Shown: positions 30,134 to 44,945 of the stretch, one piece after another
Layout of the letters: each line of letters starts with the position of its first letter
Numbering within the stretch: the first letter of the stretch is position 1
Source of the DNA: Lachnospiraceae bacterium
GTDB taxonomy: Bacteria > Bacillota > Clostridia > Lachnospirales > Lachnospiraceae
Direction: 5' to 3'
DNA length: 64,000 bases
Assembly (NCBI GenBank): GCA_021201665.1
Contig: JAJQEO010000071.1
Location: 1 to 64,000, forward strand
The notes under the pieces: model-generated
Databases searched by the model: none
What the model was told of the DNA's origin: nothing
What the model saw: the letters and a program-made list of their open reading frames with translations, nothing else
Translations under genes and position numbers: made by a program

Positions 30134-30273
30134 GTGTATCCATTGCTTGAACTAAACAGCGTAAGCTACGCATATCACGGCAAAAGCGGTGAAACCGAAG
30201 CCTTATCCGATATCTCGTTTCAGGTATTTCCCGGAGAATTTATTGCTGTCGTAGGACCGAGCGGCTGTGGCAA
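30134..30273 (+). pseudogene. ABC importer ATPase, 5' fragment cut inside Walker A
   Basis: First 46 codons of an SsuB/TauB/ThiZ-type ATP-binding protein. GTG 30134 follows AGGAGGTATCGCT and gives YPLLELNSVSYAYHGKSG...PGEFIAVVGPSGCG. The reading then leaves homology at GGCAA and stops after NAM. The missing Lys-Ser-Thr of Walker A resumes at 35451. Joining 30273 to 35451 restores GPSGCGKSTLLSLIAG in frame, so this gene was interrupted by the serine-recombinase element. As integrated it cannot make a functional ATPase. Confidence 0.93.
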
Positions 30274-30286
30274 TGCGATGTGACAG
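30269..30286 (+). other. attL of the integrated element
   Basis: The core GGCAA (30269-30273) joins host Walker A codons to an element arm GATGTGACAG (30277-30286). The same core at 35446-35450 is preceded by the inverted arm CTGTCACATC. See attR. Confidence 0.85.
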
Positions 30287-30319
30287 CTGCGGCAACACAA
30301 GGCGCGGCATGTGCATCAT

Positions 30320-31975
30320 TCATATTCTGCGGGTGCCGCAGGCTCCCACAGAATATATATGGGCTTCCTCCCCATCCCAGACAACCTTATCCAGAATCAA
30401 TCTCAGGTACTCTCTTTTCTCAGGCACGCTTAAAGTATCGAAACAGTTTTTAAAGGACGACAACTGCTCCATCAGAAATACAAGCTGCCGGGAGTCGTCC
30501 CGTACGCTCATCTCCTTTTCCTGCTGCCTGGCCTTTTCCAGCTCCAGAGCGGCACACTCTTCGTTCAGCTTTTGTACCTGCTCTTCGATCTGGCTGATAA
30601 ACGCTTCGCTTGCGGACGACCTGGCAAGCGCACCGATCAGGTTCTGAATTTCTTTTTTTCGTTTCTGGATTTCTTCTTCCAGAACATCAGCCGCGTTTCC
30701 TGCAGTACCTTTGGTATCGTCCATATTGCTCTTAATTTTTTCGAGTATGGCATGGACACTTGAATTCTCGTCCATATAACTCATCAGATCGCGGCAGACC
30801 AGTTCGTCCAGCGTATTCCCCTGCACATTCTCTACTGAGCATTTCTTTCCGTGCGTAGCATCCTTATATTCACAGATATAGGAAAATTTGCGTTCCCCTT
30901 TTTCTGATAACTGCCTGGTATCATAATACTTCGGACGCATTGCATGTCCGCAGGAACAATAGAGCAGACCTGAAAGAAGAGCCACAGAATTGTGAGGTTT
31001 CCGCCAGCCATCCCCCTTCTCTTTGTTCCTTTTCAGCAAAAGCTGAACTCTGACAAAATCCTTTCCCGAAATAATTCCTTCATGCCTCCCACGGGCAATA
31101 ATCCATTTCCCGGGTTCTGTATCCTTGCTCTTATAATCTGCCGAAGAGGTCTTCCCATAAGAGATCATGCCATATTTGCCATCCGCTTCTTCCTCCTCCA
31201 TGCAGACCTGACAACCGAGGTTCCAGAAATAATCATAGCCCTCTTTATCCGCAGTACAGTACACCGGATTCGTCAGAATATCTCTGATTGTTACTATCGT
31301 GTATCTTTTTCCCCTTTTGGTAAAAATATCATTTGTCAGAAAATAGTCTGAAATGCCCGTCAGAGACTGTTTTTCCAGATATTCTGAAAAGATAAACCGT
31401 ACCGTCTTCAGCTCCTCTTCGTCCGGTACCAGCCGGAAGCTCGTTTTGCTCTTGCCGTTGATCGTAACCTTCGCCTCCGATTTTGCCCGGAACCCCAGCG
31501 GAGTATTGCCGCCGAGCCAGCGTCCCTTTCCGGCAAGCATAATCATATTGTCTCTGACACGCTCAGCGATCTGTTCCCGCTCCATCTGAGCCAGAACCCC
31601 GGCAAAATACAGCATCGCCTTGCCAATCGGCGTGGTTGTGTCAAACCGTTCCTTGATGCTGATGAAAAAAACATTCTTTTTATCCAGCTTTTCAACCAGA
31701 TTTGCAATATCCGCTATATTCCTTCCCAGCCGGTCCAGCTTATAGCAGACCAGATAATCACATTCACCCTTATCAATGCGTTCCATCATTTTCTGAAACT
31801 GTGGGCGTTTTGTATCCTTGCCCGAGTATCCTTCATCTTCAAACTCTGCAATTTCAGCTTTATCCGCACCTTCTATATATTTCTCCACATACTCCCGGCA
31901 CATGACAAGCTGATTCTCCACGCTTTCGCCACGCCCGGTCCATTTTGACTTCCGGCTGTACATAAAAATTTTCAT
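30320..31975 (-). CDS. Large serine recombinase (site-specific integrase)
   Basis: Catalyses integration and excision of the element between attP and attB. The 551-residue protein from ATG 31975 (MKIFMYSRKSKWTGRGESVENQ) has the resolvase domain. The catalytic Ser is in YSRKS, with DEGYSGKDTKRPQFQKMM, LVCYKLDRLGRN and QMEREQIAERVRDNM. The recombinase domain (PLGFRAK...FIFSEYLEK) is followed by the zinc domain (LLYCSCGHAMRP, CEYKDATHGKKC) and a coiled coil. AGGAG precedes the start; the ORF track adds 8 codons. It has normal length and no visible lesions, so it could be active. Confidence 0.95.
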   Translation of the reverse strand: MKIFMYSRKSKWTGRGESVENQLVMCREYVEKYIEGADKAEIAEFEDEGYSGKDTKRPQFQKMMERIDKGECDYLVCYKLDRLGRNIADIANLVEKLDKKNVFFISIKERFDTTTPIGKAMLYFAGVLAQMEREQIAERVRDNMIMLAGKGRWLGGNTPLGFRAKSEAKVTINGKSKTSFRLVPDEEELKTVRFIFSEYLEKQSLTGISDYFLTNDIFTKRGKRYTIVTIRDILTNPVYCTADKEGYDYFWNLGCQVCMEEEEADGKYGMISYGKTSSADYKSKDTEPGKWIIARGRHEGIISGKDFVRVQLLLKRNKEKGDGWRKPHNSVALLSGLLYCSCGHAMRPKYYDTRQLSEKGERKFSYICEYKDATHGKKCSVENVQGNTLDELVCRDLMSYMDENSSVHAILEKIKSNMDDTKGTAGNAADVLEEEIQKRKKEIQNLIGALARSSASEAFISQIEEQVQKLNEECAALELEKARQQEKEMSVRDDSRQLVFLMEQLSSFKNCFDTLSVPEKREYLRLILDKVVWDGEEAHIYSVGACGTRRI

Positions 31976-32269
31976 ACTTACAGCTCCTGATTTCCCCAAG
32001 ATGATAGACCGATTAAAGAAATGGAGCTGCAGCCTTACGGTCGCTTTCAGAAAGGCCCATGATTTCCATAGCCTTCTCCGAAGTACAGCCCATATTCTTC
32101 TTTAAAAAGTTATCCATTCCGAAACAGACTGCTTCGTCTCTCCTACGACCATTATACATAAATTTGCAGGTAAATCAACACTGCCGGCAGCAAAAAAAGG
32201 GCGGTGCCCTCCCTGCCCGGATTATCTGTTGCGTCTGGATAATGGAAACTGCACTGGAACAAACAACTG

Positions 32270-32505
32270 TTGACATTTCCCGATAAGTCGAGATATGTTT
32301 CTTTTTTCCGGTGATGCGTATTCCATGATAATATTTCCCCTTTGCAATCATAGTTTCCCACGGATTCTCTGCCAATTCAATGTTGTCCGTTTTATCATAC
32401 GCTGCCGCAATCCAGGCGTCTGTGCTGTCACATGGGATCACAACACAAGTGAATTCCTGGGCAAAAGTCGTGCCTTAAATCCATATCTCAACGATATCAT
32501 ACCAT
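32270..32505 (-). pseudogene. Degraded gene fragment
   Basis: The minus strand reads FAQEFTCVVIPCDSTDAWIAAAYD, then ENPWETMIAKGKYYHGIRITGKKK without a proper start: a stop precedes it and the only start is an internal GTG. The composition looks like a real protein core whose family I cannot name. The rest of 31976-32778 holds no gene I can support. Confidence 0.45.
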
Positions 32506-32778
32506 GGGTGTCTCGATTAGATGCCTTTTATTTGCATTATTTGACGCTTACTGATTAAAAACTCAATCTGATAACTTTTTTCCAGATCAAAAAGAATCTG
32601 ACATATTAAATGTAGCAGGAGAAGATCCCCCTGCTGCTGTGTATTCGGATGTTGAAATCACTATACGCATACGGTAAAAACATCTGCCTGCAGATATAGT
32701 GGACAACTCAATGTACATAAGCTGTAACCAGAATCGAAAAGAAATCCTGTCCATTTATAGCTGGAGGTGGTTGTTATC

Positions 32779-32967
32779 ATGAGAAGAAAAACAATCCGAG
32801 TGGTTTGCCACTACCCCGATTCATACATAGATAAAAACGAAGATTTTAAAGTACGTATGGAAGAAGCAAATACTTTTATGGTTTCGCTGGCAGTAAAACA
32901 CCTGAGATGTTCTCAGGAACAGATCCAGGAAGTTCTCGACAAGCTTACCACTTCAGAAGAAAAGTGA
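32779..32967 (+). CDS. Small unknown protein of the element
   Basis: A 62-residue ORF starting MRRKTIRVVCHYPDSYIDKNEDF with GGAGGT upstream. The C-terminal half (MVSLAVKHLRCSQEQIQEVLDKL) looks helical. The DNA for that half is duplicated at 34892-34969 on the far side of the AAA gene, there without a proper start. Not recognised. It is the only + strand gene of the element. A long hairpin follows its stop. Confidence 0.5.
   Translation: MRRKTIRVVCHYPDSYIDKNEDFKVRMEEANTFMVSLAVKHLRCSQEQIQEVLDKLTTSEEK
32877..32954 (+). repeat. 78-bp direct repeat, left copy
   Basis: TATGGTTTCGCTGGCAGTAA...AAGCTTACCACTTC matches 34892-34969 with one mismatch. The copies are 2015 bp apart and flank the AAA/PD-(D/E)XK gene. 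Confidence 0.9.
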
Positions 32968-32973
32968 TATGAG

Positions 32974-33003
32974 TTACCACGCCTGATTTGTCAGGCGTGG
33001 TAA
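32974..33003 (+). terminator. Perfect 13-bp-stem hairpin after the small ORF
   Basis: TTACCACGCCTGA-TTTG-TCAGGCGTGGTAA. It follows the small ORF stop by a few bases. Only a weak T-poor tail follows, so terminator function is tentative. Confidence 0.5.
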
Positions 33004-33044
33004 TTCAATTCATCATGGTAAGCTGCCGGACAGGCCAACGTTTT

Positions 33045-33131
33045 TATTTCTTATAACATTGCCAGATACTTTGACTGGTCAGCGCCAGGAATTCCCAAAG
33101 CCTGCTCTGCTGTCAGCTTTAAATTTGCCAT
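33045..33131 (-). pseudogene. Short 3'-terminal gene remnant
   Basis: A 26-codon minus-strand reading MANLKLTAEQALGIPG...SKYLAML ends in TAA. It resembles the C-terminal tail of larger accessory proteins of gut Clostridia but has no body, so it is probably a remnant in the 200-bp stretch between the small ORF and the AAA gene. Confidence 0.3.
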
Positions 33132-33167
33132 GTGATTAATTCAGTTATCCGCGGTTTCCCCCGCTGA

Positions 33168-34760
33168 TTACGCCCTCTCAATCACGCAGCTATGCTTCTT
33201 CGCATCCGCTCCTTTTGCGTCCTTGTCGTAATTGATTCCGACCAGAAGCAGATCGCCAAAATATTTCTTTAAATCACCATCATAACGGTTCTCATGGATC
33301 TGGCGGATTGCGGTGTCTGCATCCTTATCATACTTAAGCTCAACGATCATTGCAGGCTTATCCGTACCCCTGCGAGGCAGGAAGGCGAGGTCAGCAAATC
33401 CCTTGCCTGCAGGCAGTTCCCTGGCTATGCTGTAATATCGTTTTGCCGTATAGTATGCTATGGTGATTGCGCAACTAAGCGAAGCTTCATTATTATAGTT
33501 TAATACTGATGATACTGAGCTGTGTATTTGTTCCAATGTTTCTGCCACAGCTTCTGCCTCTTCCGCAAGAGTTGCATCAAGCAATCTTTCTGAATCAGAT
33601 AACGCTTTTCCAACTGTTCCCCATTCTGGTCCGCTGACCGCATCCTCAAATGCTTCAGCAACCTCAAAGTTTGGAATATATATCTCTCTTTTAGCTGAAT
33701 CGTATGCCAGATAACCCAGATGAATCAAAAGCGTCAGTACATCATTTCCGTTTTTAAATGATGTTATGTCATTCTGGAATGTACTTATTCTGACGCTTAC
33801 CCTCTCTCCTCCAAGCATAGTAGTGACTGCATCCTTCAAGCCATCAAAATCCATTCCAATATATTCTTTCAGGCTTTCAAAGGATTCTGTCTGATTCCAG
33901 TAATTTTGCATTTCCCCTTCCTGTATGGCATTCATTACTGAATTAGGACTGTAGACATGTTTCATGCGGTTAAATGAGTATCCATCATACCAGGACTGCA
34001 TCTCGCCAAAATCCATTTGATACTCACCGCAAAGATGCTTTACTTCGTCTTCAGTAAAACCAATATATTCTGCAAGTCTTTTGGGCGTGGTCATGGAATA
34101 TTCTTTAAAATCTGTCAGTGCGGATTCGGTGCCATATTTCTTAATTGGAAGGATACCTGTCATATAGGCAGCAGCTATTATTTCATCTGTCGTTGTTCCT
34201 CCTTTAAAAAGCCCCCGCAGGAGTTGAATGTATTCCTTTTGCAGGGCAATATCATCCTTTGCTTCTCTGAATAACGCATCGCATTCATCTATTATGATGA
34301 TAAACTGATTCCCCACCTTCTGGCTGACAGACAAAAGAGCGTCCGGCAGAAATGTTTCACTCTCACTCACACAACCCGGAAATGCTTTTCTTAACTCATC
34401 TATCACAGCCGATTGGATATCCAGCACCACATTATCCCCTTTATTTTTTGAACGGGAAATAAACCATGTAATGTCAAGATATATCACATCGTACTTGTTA
34501 AGATACCTGTCAAACGAATCCTTCTTCGAAATTGTCAATCCCTCAAATAGAGACCGTGAATCACAACTCTTGTCATAATAGGCGCAAAGCATCTTCGCCG
34601 CAAATGATTTTCCAAAACGGCGGGGACGGCTGAAGCTGGTCAGCTTCTGAGGAGTATTAATCGTTCCATTTATAAAATCAATCAGACCTGTTTTGTCAAC
34701 ATAGGTTCCGTTTAAAATTGTCCGAAATCCTCTGTTCCCGGGGTTTAAATAAATTCCCAT
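33168..34760 (-). CDS. AAA-ATPase-like protein with C-terminal PD-(D/E)XK nuclease domain (copy A)
   Basis: A member of the AAA-ATPase_like plus PDDEXK_9 family, expanded in gut anaerobes and without a known role. The 530-residue protein has a Walker A-like SFSRPRRFGKSFAAKML (about residues 42-58), a Walker B FIIIIDECDALF and a helical middle. A nuclease core follows: GFADLAFLP, then PAMIVELKYDKDADTAIRQI with the E-x-K pair. CAGGAGGTTACAG precedes the ATG. It is closely related to copy B at 43.2 kb by long shared motifs. It lies inside the integrated element, flanked by 78-bp direct repeats, which suggests it moved as a cassette. Confidence 0.9.
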   Translation of the reverse strand: MGIYLNPGNRGFRTILNGTYVDKTGLIDFINGTINTPQKLTSFSRPRRFGKSFAAKMLCAYYDKSCDSRSLFEGLTISKKDSFDRYLNKYDVIYLDITWFISRSKNKGDNVVLDIQSAVIDELRKAFPGCVSESETFLPDALLSVSQKVGNQFIIIIDECDALFREAKDDIALQKEYIQLLRGLFKGGTTTDEIIAAAYMTGILPIKKYGTESALTDFKEYSMTTPKRLAEYIGFTEDEVKHLCGEYQMDFGEMQSWYDGYSFNRMKHVYSPNSVMNAIQEGEMQNYWNQTESFESLKEYIGMDFDGLKDAVTTMLGGERVSVRISTFQNDITSFKNGNDVLTLLIHLGYLAYDSAKREIYIPNFEVAEAFEDAVSGPEWGTVGKALSDSERLLDATLAEEAEAVAETLEQIHSSVSSVLNYNNEASLSCAITIAYYTAKRYYSIARELPAGKGFADLAFLPRRGTDKPAMIVELKYDKDADTAIRQIHENRYDGDLKKYFGDLLLVGINYDKDAKGADAKKHSCVIERA

Positions 34761-34891
34761 GATCTGTAACCTCCTGTATTTTCAGTACCTTACGTGTTTT
34801 TTAGTGTAGCATATCCCACCATCATTCACAAGCAGAATTTATTGGCTTTTCCAGCGGCTCCATCCAGTTTTTCTATCAGGCTTCTCTCCTA

Positions 34892-34969
34892 TATGGTTTC
34901 GCTGGCAGTAAAACACCTGAGATGTTCTCAGGAACAGATCCAGGAAGTTCTCGACAAGCTTACCGCTTC
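34892..34969 (+). repeat. 78-bp direct repeat, right copy
   Basis: Second copy of the repeat at 32877-32954. It overlaps the last codons of the double-HTH regulator gene on the other strand. A 63-codon + strand ORF here owes its C-terminus to the repeat and is not called as a gene. Confidence 0.9.
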
Positions 34970-35442
34970 TTTTTCCAATCCCTGATTTTCGCCCAATACT
35001 GCAAGGGTATTCGACTTTTTCCCTGCTCATATGTTTTATATGAATCCAGCGGTATATCCGCCTTCTCTGCAAATTCTCTCTGTGTTAATCCCAGTCCCAG
35101 CCGCATCTCTTTTAGATACACCGGGACATCAGTATTTTCTATAAAGATATGATATTCGTTGCAAAAATAGTGTTTCGGAAGTCCCATCACTTTCGCCATC
35201 TGTTTTAGCAGGTCAATATTCATATTTTCCTCGGATGTCTTTCCGCATGCATAAGCATACACTCTATCACGGGAGCATCCGATTCTTTTTGCCAGAGTCG
35301 GCTGAGACAATCCGGCCCGCTTCATCTGATATCGAAGTCTTGCTGATATGGATGCTTCCAAAATGTCCGGATCTGTAAACATTCCTTCGAATTCTCTGCT
35401 TTCAGGGGATAAAATTGCCTGGTTTGTTTCCGTTACTGTCAC
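34960..35442 (-). CDS. Transcriptional regulator with two XRE-type HTH domains
   Basis: A 160-residue protein with a first HTH (ISARLRYQMKRAGLSQPTLAKRIGCSRDRVYAYACG, about 31-70) and a second (LKEMRLGLGLTQREFAEKADIPLDSYKTYEQGK, about 109-142). It probably controls the element. The ORF-track GTG start at 35442 lies inside the attR arm GATGTGACAG. The N-terminal 20 residues and the upstream promoter therefore differ between integrated and circular forms. An internal ATG at 35382 (MFTDPDIL) is the alternative. The C-terminus runs into the 78-bp repeat. Confidence 0.75.
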   Translation of the reverse strand: MTVTETNQAILSPESREFEGMFTDPDILEASISARLRYQMKRAGLSQPTLAKRIGCSRDRVYAYACGKTSEENMNIDLLKQMAKVMGLPKHYFCNEYHIFIENTDVPVYLKEMRLGLGLTQREFAEKADIPLDSYKTYEQGKSRIPLQYWAKIRDWKKKR

Positions 35443-35450
35443 ATCGGCAA
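35436..35450 (+). other. attR of the integrated element
   Basis: Element arm CTGTCACATC (35436-35445) precedes the core GGCAA (35446-35450), followed by host codons ATCCACGCTG encoding the rest of Walker A. Combined with attL, the circular attP would be a near-perfect palindrome: CTGTCACATC, the centre GGCAATGC, then GATGTGACAG. That layout is expected for a serine integrase. attB is the Walker A coding sequence. Confidence 0.85.
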
Positions 35451-35534
35451 ATCCACGCTGCTCTCTTTGATTGCGGGCCTGATAACCCCGGAGAGCGGGA
35501 GTATATTATTGCAGGGAGCTGCTGTGGAAACGCC

Positions 35535-35665
35535 CCCTCGCCAAGGCTCGGCGAATATCCCGCCCATAGGGCGGGGATGCCCGCGCCCCATAATCAGAGA
35601 TTGGGGGCATAACCCGGCGAGGGCAGGTCACAGCCCCATGAAAGATCGCTTCGCGATGGGGGCTG
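35535..35665. repeat. Palindromic element inserted in frame in the ATPase gene
   Basis: Bounded by CCCTCGCC (35535) and GGCGAGGG (35616-35623). Inside are the palindromes CCCGCCCATAGGGCGGG and CCCCATAATC-AGA-GATTGGGGG. A third hairpin (CAGCCCCAT / ATGGGGGCTG) follows to 35665. The segment GATGCCCGC to CATAACCCGGCGAGGGC matches 46044-46091 closely. It encodes a Pro/Arg/Gly-rich peptide with no counterpart in usual ATPases of this family. Confidence 0.75.
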
Positions 35666-36310
35666 CTCAGAAAAGCCGGATCGGATATATGCTGCAGAAG
35701 GATCACCTGTTTGAGTGGCGCACAATCTACCGCAATATTATCCTCGGTCCTGAAATCAGGCATCAGCTGGATAAAAACACCAGAAAACGAATTGATGATA
35801 TGCTCAGAGAATATGGGCTGGACGGGTTCCGCAATGCCCGCCCCAGCGAACTCTCCGGCGGGATGCGCCAGCGCGCCGCGCTGATCCGCACGTTGGCGAA
35901 TGACCCGGAGCTGCTTTTGCTTGACGAACCCTTCTCGGCACTTGATTACCTGACGCGGCTGAGGGTCTGTGACGATGTCGCGGCGATTTTGCGGAAGGAG
36001 CGGAAAACGGTGCTTCTTGTGACACATGATCTTTCGGAGGCGATCAGCATGGCCGACCGGATTCTCGTCCTGACGAAGCGGCCGGCGCGTATCCAGGCCA
36101 TTCTGGATGTAAGTTTTCCAGAAGATAAACCGCATATGAACACGAGATTTTCCCCATCCGCCCGGGGCACGGATCTCACTGAGGGTTCTTCCGACACAGA
36201 TTCCTCTCTGTCAGGTACAAAAAGAGAGGCCGAAAAGCGGCTTACCCCATTCGAACGCCGCAGCACGCCTGAGTTTTCAAAATACTTTCATCTTCTATGG
36301 AAGGAGTTGA

Positions 36311-37270
36311 ATGCCGGTGAAGAGCCTGAAAATGAAGAGTATGAAAACGAAAAGCATGAAAATGAAAAGCACGAAAATGAAAAGCACGAAAATGAAAAGC
36401 ACGAAAATGAAAAGCATGAAAGCGAAAAACATGGAAATGGATAACATGAAAAGCATTAAAATGAATAACACGGAAAGCATGTCCCCTTCACAAAAGCAAT
36501 ATCTGAGGGATCTCGACCGCCGCAGGCACAGGATCCGGGCTGTCCGGATTTTGATTTTTGTCCTGTTTTTGCTGCTCTGGGAAACGGCGGTACGGCAGGG
36601 ATGGATAGATGGATTTATTTTCAGCAGTCCGTCAAGAGTGGCGGAAGCGTTTCTCCGTCTGTGGGCGGACGGCAGCATCCTCCGCCACACGAAGGTCACG
36701 CTTCTGGAGACGCTCGCCAGCTTCGCTCTCGTGGTTTTTCTGGGGGTGGGCTGTGCCGTTCTGCTCTGGTACAATCAGGCTCTCTCAGAGATCCTTGAGC
36801 CTTATCTTGTCATCCTGAACAGCCTGCCAAAGTCGGCACTTGCGCCGCTTCTGATCGTCTGGCTCGGCGCTAACCTGAAGTCCATCATCGTCTCAGGTGT
36901 GTCGGTCGCGATTTTCGGGACCATTCTGAATCTCTACACAGGTTTTAACGAGATGGATCCGGAAAGCTGCAAATTGATTTATACGCTTCAGGGGACGAAG
37001 AAAGATGTGCTGTTTAAGGTACTCCTCCCAGGGACGCTTCCGCTTTTGATCAGCATTATGAAGGTCAACATCGGCCTGTGCCTGGTCGGCGTCGTGATCG
37101 GGGAGTTCATCGGAGCGAGAGAAGGACTCGGATACCTGATAATCTACTCAAGTCAAGTTTTCAAGCTGGATTATCTGATACTGTCGATTGTGGTACTTTG
37201 CGTAATCGCGGTGCTGCTCTATGGGGTACTGAGTCTGCTTGAGAAAAAATGCAATCGCATGGGGTACTAA
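36311..37270 (+). CDS. ABC importer permease (SsuC/TauC/ThiX type)
   Basis: Membrane permease of the same importer, BPD_transp_1 family. After a repetitive Lys/Met/Ser/Thr N-terminus (KMKSTKMKST units, about residues 7-48) come six helices. Motifs include FSSPSRVAEAFLRLW, NSLPKSALAPLLIVWLGAN and the EAA-like loop LQGTKKDVLFKVLLPGTLP with VGVVIGEFIGAREGLGYLI. The ATG at 36311 has an ideal AAGGAGTTGA site that lies within the ATPase codons WKEL. The two genes therefore overlap by 134 bp and share the 15-bp repeat in different frames. Later starts at 36446 or 36479 are possible. No substrate-binding protein gene follows. Confidence 0.88.
   Translation: MPVKSLKMKSMKTKSMKMKSTKMKSTKMKSTKMKSMKAKNMEMDNMKSIKMNNTESMSPSQKQYLRDLDRRRHRIRAVRILIFVLFLLLWETAVRQGWIDGFIFSSPSRVAEAFLRLWADGSILRHTKVTLLETLASFALVVFLGVGCAVLLWYNQALSEILEPYLVILNSLPKSALAPLLIVWLGANLKSIIVSGVSVAIFGTILNLYTGFNEMDPESCKLIYTLQGTKKDVLFKVLLPGTLPLLISIMKVNIGLCLVGVVIGEFIGAREGLGYLIIYSSQVFKLDYLILSIVVLCVIAVLLYGVLSLLEKKCNRMGY
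36345..36430. repeat. 15-bp tandem repeat read in two frames
   Basis: Five to six units of GAAAATGAAAAGCAC or GAAAATGAAAAGCAT. In the ATPase frame they encode ENEKH; one frame over, in the permease, they encode KMKST/KMKSM. Because 15 is divisible by three, copy-number changes lengthen or shorten both proteins without frameshift. Confidence 0.88.
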
Positions 37271-44759: not shown

Positions 44760-44857
44760 AACGATAAACTCCTTTCTTTTGGTCAGAACAGCTGCGCTGG
44801 ATTTCCCTAAATTTGCGAATATGACAGGTTTCTGCCTGTACCTGTTCGAACACAGAC

Positions 44858-44945
44858 AGATCAGCTCCTGGTACGCCTCGACCTGAATCTGCTCGAATAC
44901 AGCTAGATCAGCTCCTGGTACGCCTCGACCTGAATCTGCTCGAAG
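44858..44945. repeat. 49-bp-spaced duplication at the cobT 3' end
   Basis: GATCAGCTCCTGGTACGCCTCGACCTGAATCTGCTCGAA occurs at 44858 and 44907. The right copy encodes the last residues of CobT (FEQIQVEAYQELI); the left copy lies downstream. A third, diverged GTTCGAACACAGACAGATCAG precedes them. Confidence 0.75.

Follow-up and report, generated by a model that had tools for sequence, protein, structure and literature searches.

The 5177-bp element that splits an ABC importer ATPase gene in this Lachnospiraceae genome is best read as a site-specific integrative cassette with one chromosomal attB in Lachnospiraceae, the Walker A codons of a single orthologous ATPase, a reading that can be given a probability of roughly 0.8. 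In the window, i.e., the whole 64,000-nucleotide stretch of DNA that was analyzed, the element together with one copy of the core occupies positions 30272-35448 and interrupts the gene at the Walker A lysine codon. Both junctions can be read directly. On the left, the N-terminal half ends with GGA CCG AGC GGC TGT GGC (GPSGCG) and is followed by AA TGCGATGTGACAG; on the right, CTGTCACATC leads into GGC AAA TCC ACG (GKST). The pentanucleotide GGCAA is present at both junctions (30269-30273 and 35446-35450), and the two halves joined without the element give GPSGCGKSTLLSLIAG, in frame. The preliminary description of this locus, which placed a serine-integrase element exactly in the Walker A codons of an ABC importer ATPase and stated that removal of one GGCAA copy restores the frame, is thereby confirmed. 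The same junction was found again in dozens of independent assemblies, so it cannot be ascribed to chance.

The crossover common to both ends consists of the two bases AA of the lysine codon; that the preceding GGC is also found at both is due to the GGY in attP itself. The left attachment site, attL (30247-30298, forward strand, crossover at 30272-30273), has the P arm TGCGATGTGACAGCTGCGGCAACA and is the sole exact match of its sequence in its own genome, and attR (35424-35475, forward strand, crossover at 35449-35450) has the P arm TTTGTTTCCGTTACTGTCACATCGGC. Put together, the two element ends form CTGTCACATCG-GCAATG-CGATGTGACAG, a near-palindrome with AA at its center, which is the predicted attP of the circularized element. 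Near-palindromic attP sites are the typical and expected layout for serine integrases. Among the 22 elements with both ends available, the attP halves, compared as inverted repeats over the outer 25 bases, match at a mean of 16.4 of 25 positions versus 6.9 for shuffled letters, and the arms carry a conserved GGAAACA ~20 bases out. The element has a G+C content of 43.9%, compared to 50 to 51% in its flanks.

The N-terminal half of the ATPase (30134-30271, forward strand) begins with GTG after AGGAGGT, ends at the GPSGCG of Walker A, and has a match of 95.8% identity over amino acids 1 to 48 of the joined query. The C-terminal part (35449-36444, forward strand) is open from the Walker A lysine (KSTLLSLIAG) to the stop codon, with the signature motif, Walker B, and H-loop intact. 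In its linker, at ~35525-35680, it carries a palindrome-rich in-frame insert of ~130 to 150 bp; in genome G014, the insert at this position is longer (~290 bp). The importer permease (36311-37270, forward strand; Pfam BPD_transp_1, 3.9e-21) belongs to the same operon. Its relatives are of the sulfonate/taurine/nitrate type, but the NCBIfam search for the importer substrate reached no cut-off. Where the end of the ATPase gene overlaps the start of the permease gene (~36330-36440), a short tandem repeat is read in two frames (NEKHENEKH... and KMKSTKMKS...).

Within the element, the gene next to attL encodes a large serine recombinase of 559 amino acids (30320-31999, reverse strand; probable ATG at 31975). 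As had been claimed, it is full length and adjoins the left end: its C-terminal end points toward attL, and its stop codon lies ~46 to 48 bp from the left crossover. It contains the Resolvase (4.7e-38), Recombinase (5.8e-18), and zinc-ribbon (Zn_ribbon_recom, 1.4e-07) domains of Pfam, and these family features are accompanied by a short common att core and inverted-repeat attP arms. The YSRKS motif with the presumed catalytic serine is invariant in five relatives of the integrase. A small open reading frame (ORF) of 66 codons (32767-32967, forward strand) matches no Pfam family, and its homologue adjoins attR in the 29-kb element of genome G018; its identification as a directionality factor is speculative. 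The cargo gene (33168-34760, reverse strand) codes for a 530-amino-acid AAA-ATPase_like and PDDEXK_9 protein (Pfam, 6.5e-28 and 6.2e-08) and is bracketed by two direct repeats of 78 bp that are 99% identical (32877-32954 and 34892-34969); by this repeat comparison, the second of them (forward strand) is a truncated second copy of part of the 66-codon ORF. The last gene, adjoining attR, encodes a 160-amino-acid protein with a double helix-turn-helix of the Cro/C1 type (34960-35442, reverse strand; HTH_31, 4.1e-13, and HTH_3, 1.4e-12).

Genes similar to the cargo gene are seen next to repeats elsewhere. In the window, two adjoining 47-bp copies (87% identical) are located at 44835-44928, at the end of a cobT-like gene and beside another AAA-ATPase_like gene. 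In genome G015, an AAA-ATPase_like/PDDEXK_9-type gene lies between 123-bp direct repeats (89% identical; locus L064, 6904-9198), and the repeat spans a copy of the N-terminal ATPase half plus attL. In the genome from which the window comes, PF09820 is matched ~50 times. The AAA-ATPase_like/PDDEXK_9 genes of the window element and of G015, both bracketed by long direct repeats of adjoining sequence, may represent a separate kind of mobile gene.

A scan that covered one genome per species yielded 87 relatives. The 79 loci retained from these are, by title, almost all from Lachnospiraceae or close to it. In the integrase tree, 67 integrases of Lachnospiraceae, 38 to 86% identical, make up one side of a single branch with a support of 100. 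For nearly all of these, an ATPase N half that breaks off at Walker A lies no more than ~360 bp away, and the exceptions still touch the same ATPase gene. Thus, the contigs of L140 and L150 show the C half only; in L135 (genome G023), the element is inverted and the integrase is beside the C half, with the same AA crossover; and the L152 integrase is located at the far end, 302 bp from the C half. The N halves have in common the motif H...GET.AL before Walker A, so the targets belong to one ATPase family rather than to any ABC gene. All junctions checked at both ends share AA as the central dinucleotide, with which the invariant lysine codon begins. The Lachnospiraceae clade uses one target, Walker A of an orthologous ABC importer ATPase.

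Integrases more distant than this (below ~43% identity, outside the clade) are not found at this Walker A site. The 40%-identical integrases of the window's genus in the L067-L074 cluster, considered as further members, also fall outside the clade and have no broken ATPase adjoining them. In loci L266 and L275 (genome G047), ~60 bp separate a 38%-identical nonclade integrase from an ATPase that belongs to this family but is broken near the H-loop (THDISEAISL) and followed by a GGAAACA arm; this may be a second att site within the gene.

Occupied and empty sites were compared in two genera, again with one genome per species. Among 47 genomes of the window's genus, the ATPase is interrupted in 6 (G000, G008, G010, G015, G018, and G023) and intact at Walker A in 37; G028, at a contig edge, was left unclassified and three genomes had no clear ortholog, so that 43 were classifiable. 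The intact ATPase gene that the preliminary description had proposed to look for in relatives is therefore common. In the genus of Blautia sp. An81, the gene is intact in 12 of 20 genomes, while the other 8 have it interrupted or carry attL or attR. Seven related Blautia species carry the integrase, and their close relative L212 has a clean empty site. Carriers are also found among cultured commensals, namely, Blautia sp. An81, Sporofaciens musculi WCA-9-b2, Schaedlerella arabinosiphila DSM 106076, and Eubacterium sp. 14-2. No second full-length ortholog of the ATPase was found in the 14 interrupted genomes searched. Of the excision products that had also been proposed as a check, circular attP did not appear: a pattern search of the 47 assemblies of the genus returned no real match (one match had 3 mismatches).

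In every element read through both junctions, both halves of the ATPase are open, joining them restores the frame, and Walker B, the signature motif, and the H-loop remain recognizable. Five Blautia species with orthologous cargo, each represented by one genome, allow selection on the split gene to be estimated. For the C half, dN/dS is 0.005 to 0.027 at dS values of 0.26 to 1.40 (rough NG86 estimates from pairs that are not independent), compared to ATPase dN/dS of 0.02 to 0.06 in intact Blautia pairs. The dS of the integrase (0.31 to 1.28) tracks that of the C half, and the permease shows 0.24 to 1.11, so the element and its host appear to have been inherited together. Given the low dN/dS, the tracking integrase dS, and the empty site in L212, the Blautia ATPase looks functional over evolutionary time even though almost all sampled genomes of that group have it interrupted. 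Apparently strong purifying selection on a split gene whose element seems to be co-inherited suggests that gene-restoring excision takes place in Blautia often enough to matter. That excision would turn the importer on again is plausible and gains indirect support from the apparent constraint on the split gene. The possibility that the C half has been fused to a substitute Walker A was considered and rejected: the frame upstream closes after 9 to 85 codons, and no conserved upstream extension could take the place of Walker A, so that, judging from these sequences, the C half cannot work alone through a newly gained motif. In the window's genus, the integrase is less diverged between the window and G018 (dS of 0.50) than the flanking ATPase and permease (1.3 to 1.6), which points to its movement by horizontal transfer.

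The elements with both ends are 2.4 to 10 kb long, apart from that of G018 (29.5 kb), and have almost nothing in common except the integrase. Their cargo includes a Lon protease with a chaperonin, a DnaG-like protein matching the N-terminal part of a DRT family, Fic, leucine-rich-repeat and InlB-like surface proteins, a chemotaxis receptor, GH30, and beta-galactosidase with AraC regulators; in Blautia, it includes a PfkB kinase, a cupin regulator, a LysE exporter, and a serine dehydratase. Defense systems were rejected as the common cargo, as PADLOC gave only occasional matches. No directionality or excision factor common to all elements was found across the clade. A basic ORF of 65 codons (MRKHHINCKIEGKTRES...) is conserved upstream of the integrase in 10 loci of a single subclade (L140, L142, L145, L146, L150, L151, L159, L162, L169, and L170) and is a candidate excision factor there.

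A preliminary suggestion was that the integrase, because Walker A is conserved in many ABC genes, could have many potential targets. The attB core does encode a motif common to many ABC ATPases, and the genome has 12 other GGNTGYGGNAARTCNAC sites. However, all 12 are uninterrupted, attL occurs there only once, 67 of 67 clade members sit in one ATPase family, and the integrase does not contain DUF4368, a domain linked to multitargeting (PMC10083194), so that an enzyme attacking the Walker A codons of many ABC genes is very improbable. The other alternatives considered are refinements of the core reading, and the confidences attached to them overlap and do not add up to one. Large serine recombinases are common in phages and integrative conjugative elements (ICEs), and the cassettes could be what is left of a prophage or conjugative element after the loss of structural or transfer genes. 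The 29-kb size of the G018 element fits such an origin, as do the RecT/RadC-like, phage- or ICE-like genes that, judged by eye, seem to be present on the G023 contig (L135/L066). Yet no phage or conjugation families were detected in the window element or among the cargo proteins of the other elements tested by family models, no clade members were found in phage or plasmid records, whose best full-length relatives are only 34% and 39% identical, respectively, and none of the 12 loci with the attP pattern in viral contigs has a clade integrase or the ATPase. This origin is quite improbable.

Two further refinements differ in the fate they assign to the importer. A plain selfish island would have killed a dispensable importer for good, with the halves looking intact only because each insertion is young. 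The patchy presence of the element (6 of the 43 classifiable genomes of the genus), its horizontal transfer there, and the retention of an intact gene by most species are in line with such an island, but no decayed half was seen among the elements read through both junctions, and the Blautia integrase and cargo seem to have been co-inherited over dS of up to 1.3 with the ATPase as constrained as in intact species. A plain island is accordingly rather doubtful. The same Blautia data, namely, tracking dS with low dN/dS in the split ATPase, seven carriers next to one empty relative, and open halves throughout, favor a programmed gene-intervening element of the skin, gin, or fdxN type, stably inherited and excised upon a signal (growth stage, nutrient, or sporulation), which would make the importer conditional; the integrase also has a match, below the cut-off, to XisF of the fdxN element. 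Such a program is nevertheless unlikely for several reasons: intact genes make up most of the orthologs checked in the two genera, so control can do without the insertion; in the window's genus, the integrases are passed on horizontally; the elements share no conserved regulatory gene or directionality factor; and the target is an importer rather than a developmental gene.

In the preferred reading, that of a site-specific cassette with a single attB, the large serine recombinase would recombine the palindromic attP of the element with attB and presumably performs the strand exchange itself, with the crossover on the AA that opens the lysine codon (AAA/AAG). Serine integrases need an exact two-base match between their att sites. 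Since the catalytic lysine codon can hardly change without loss of ATPase function, and a synonymous change cannot remove AA, the match would be kept in every host; the observed pattern suggests that the site was chosen for this reason. Integration splits the ATPase and should shut off the importer, with probable loss of transport, and precise excision would restore the frame, presumably often enough to keep the gene under selection. The only part that the elements have in common is the recombinase, with cargo exchanged freely. A more far-reaching version, in which host-inherited cassettes in the lysine codon constitute a reversible, family-wide on/off switch of the importer with regulated excision and a slot for the exchange of metabolic, adhesion, or defense cargo, is tentative and unlikely; if it is true, the importer works only in those cells or conditions where the cassette has left.

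The cassettes resemble several known systems. Similarly to SCC and the Enterococcus cassette chromosome (CcrA, CcrB, and CcrC; PMC6222049), they combine a core large serine recombinase, one conserved attB, and variable cargo. CcrB is the best NCBIfam match of the integrase (4.7e-40), but its 138 bits are far below the 900-bit cut-off, and the match to XisF likewise falls far short of its cut-off. The attB of SCC is the 3' end of rlmH, whereas the attB used here is mid-gene, in an ABC ATPase, so that the target is split; SCC uses the CcrA-CcrB pair, in contrast to the one recombinase and mostly small elements (2.4 to 10 kb) of Lachnospiraceae. A split host gene whose frame is restored upon removal is shared with gene-intervening elements of the skin, gin, and fdxN type. 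One of these, gin in gerE of Bacillus cereus (PMC5595907), is likewise a nonphage element with a serine recombinase whose excision rebuilds the gene, but it has three recombinases and the 42-amino-acid factor GirX, and its sporulation-specific excision has been demonstrated (PMC5595907), while the elements described here have one recombinase, no common factor, an importer as the target, and putative excision. Skin in sigK of Clostridioides difficile (PMC5025042) and SP-beta in spsM of Bacillus subtilis (PMC4191935) are also located inside host coding genes, and their precise removal by a serine recombinase gives a working gene, according to the summary in PMC5595907; they differ in being prophages or prophage-like, in residing in sporulation genes, and in that their excision has been tested. 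Clades of large serine recombinases with one target gene have been described for magnesium chelatase and prolyl isomerase (PMC10083194); there, as here, a single conserved site within a coding gene is used by diverse recombinases. The main text of that paper mentions no ABC ATPase target; in the present case, the crossover dinucleotide belongs to a catalytic lysine codon, and the analysis extended to the cargo and to selection on the split gene.

One-target recombinase groups (PMC10083194), nonphage gene-intervening elements (PMC5595907), and cassette chromosomes (PMC6222049) are therefore already known. No serine integrase family with a Walker A or ABC ATPase target was found in a search of the main texts of openly available papers, and as far as the literature searched shows, this family of small gut-bacterial cassettes is unreported. 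The mapped att site could serve in the engineering of Lachnospiraceae. The cassettes indicate that a serine integrase can secure its landing site across a whole bacterial family by borrowing the two-base core from an unchangeable host codon. If excision occurs as the Blautia data suggest, a point that cultured carriers like Blautia sp. An81 make accessible to testing, they would represent gene-intervening elements that control metabolism rather than sporulation.
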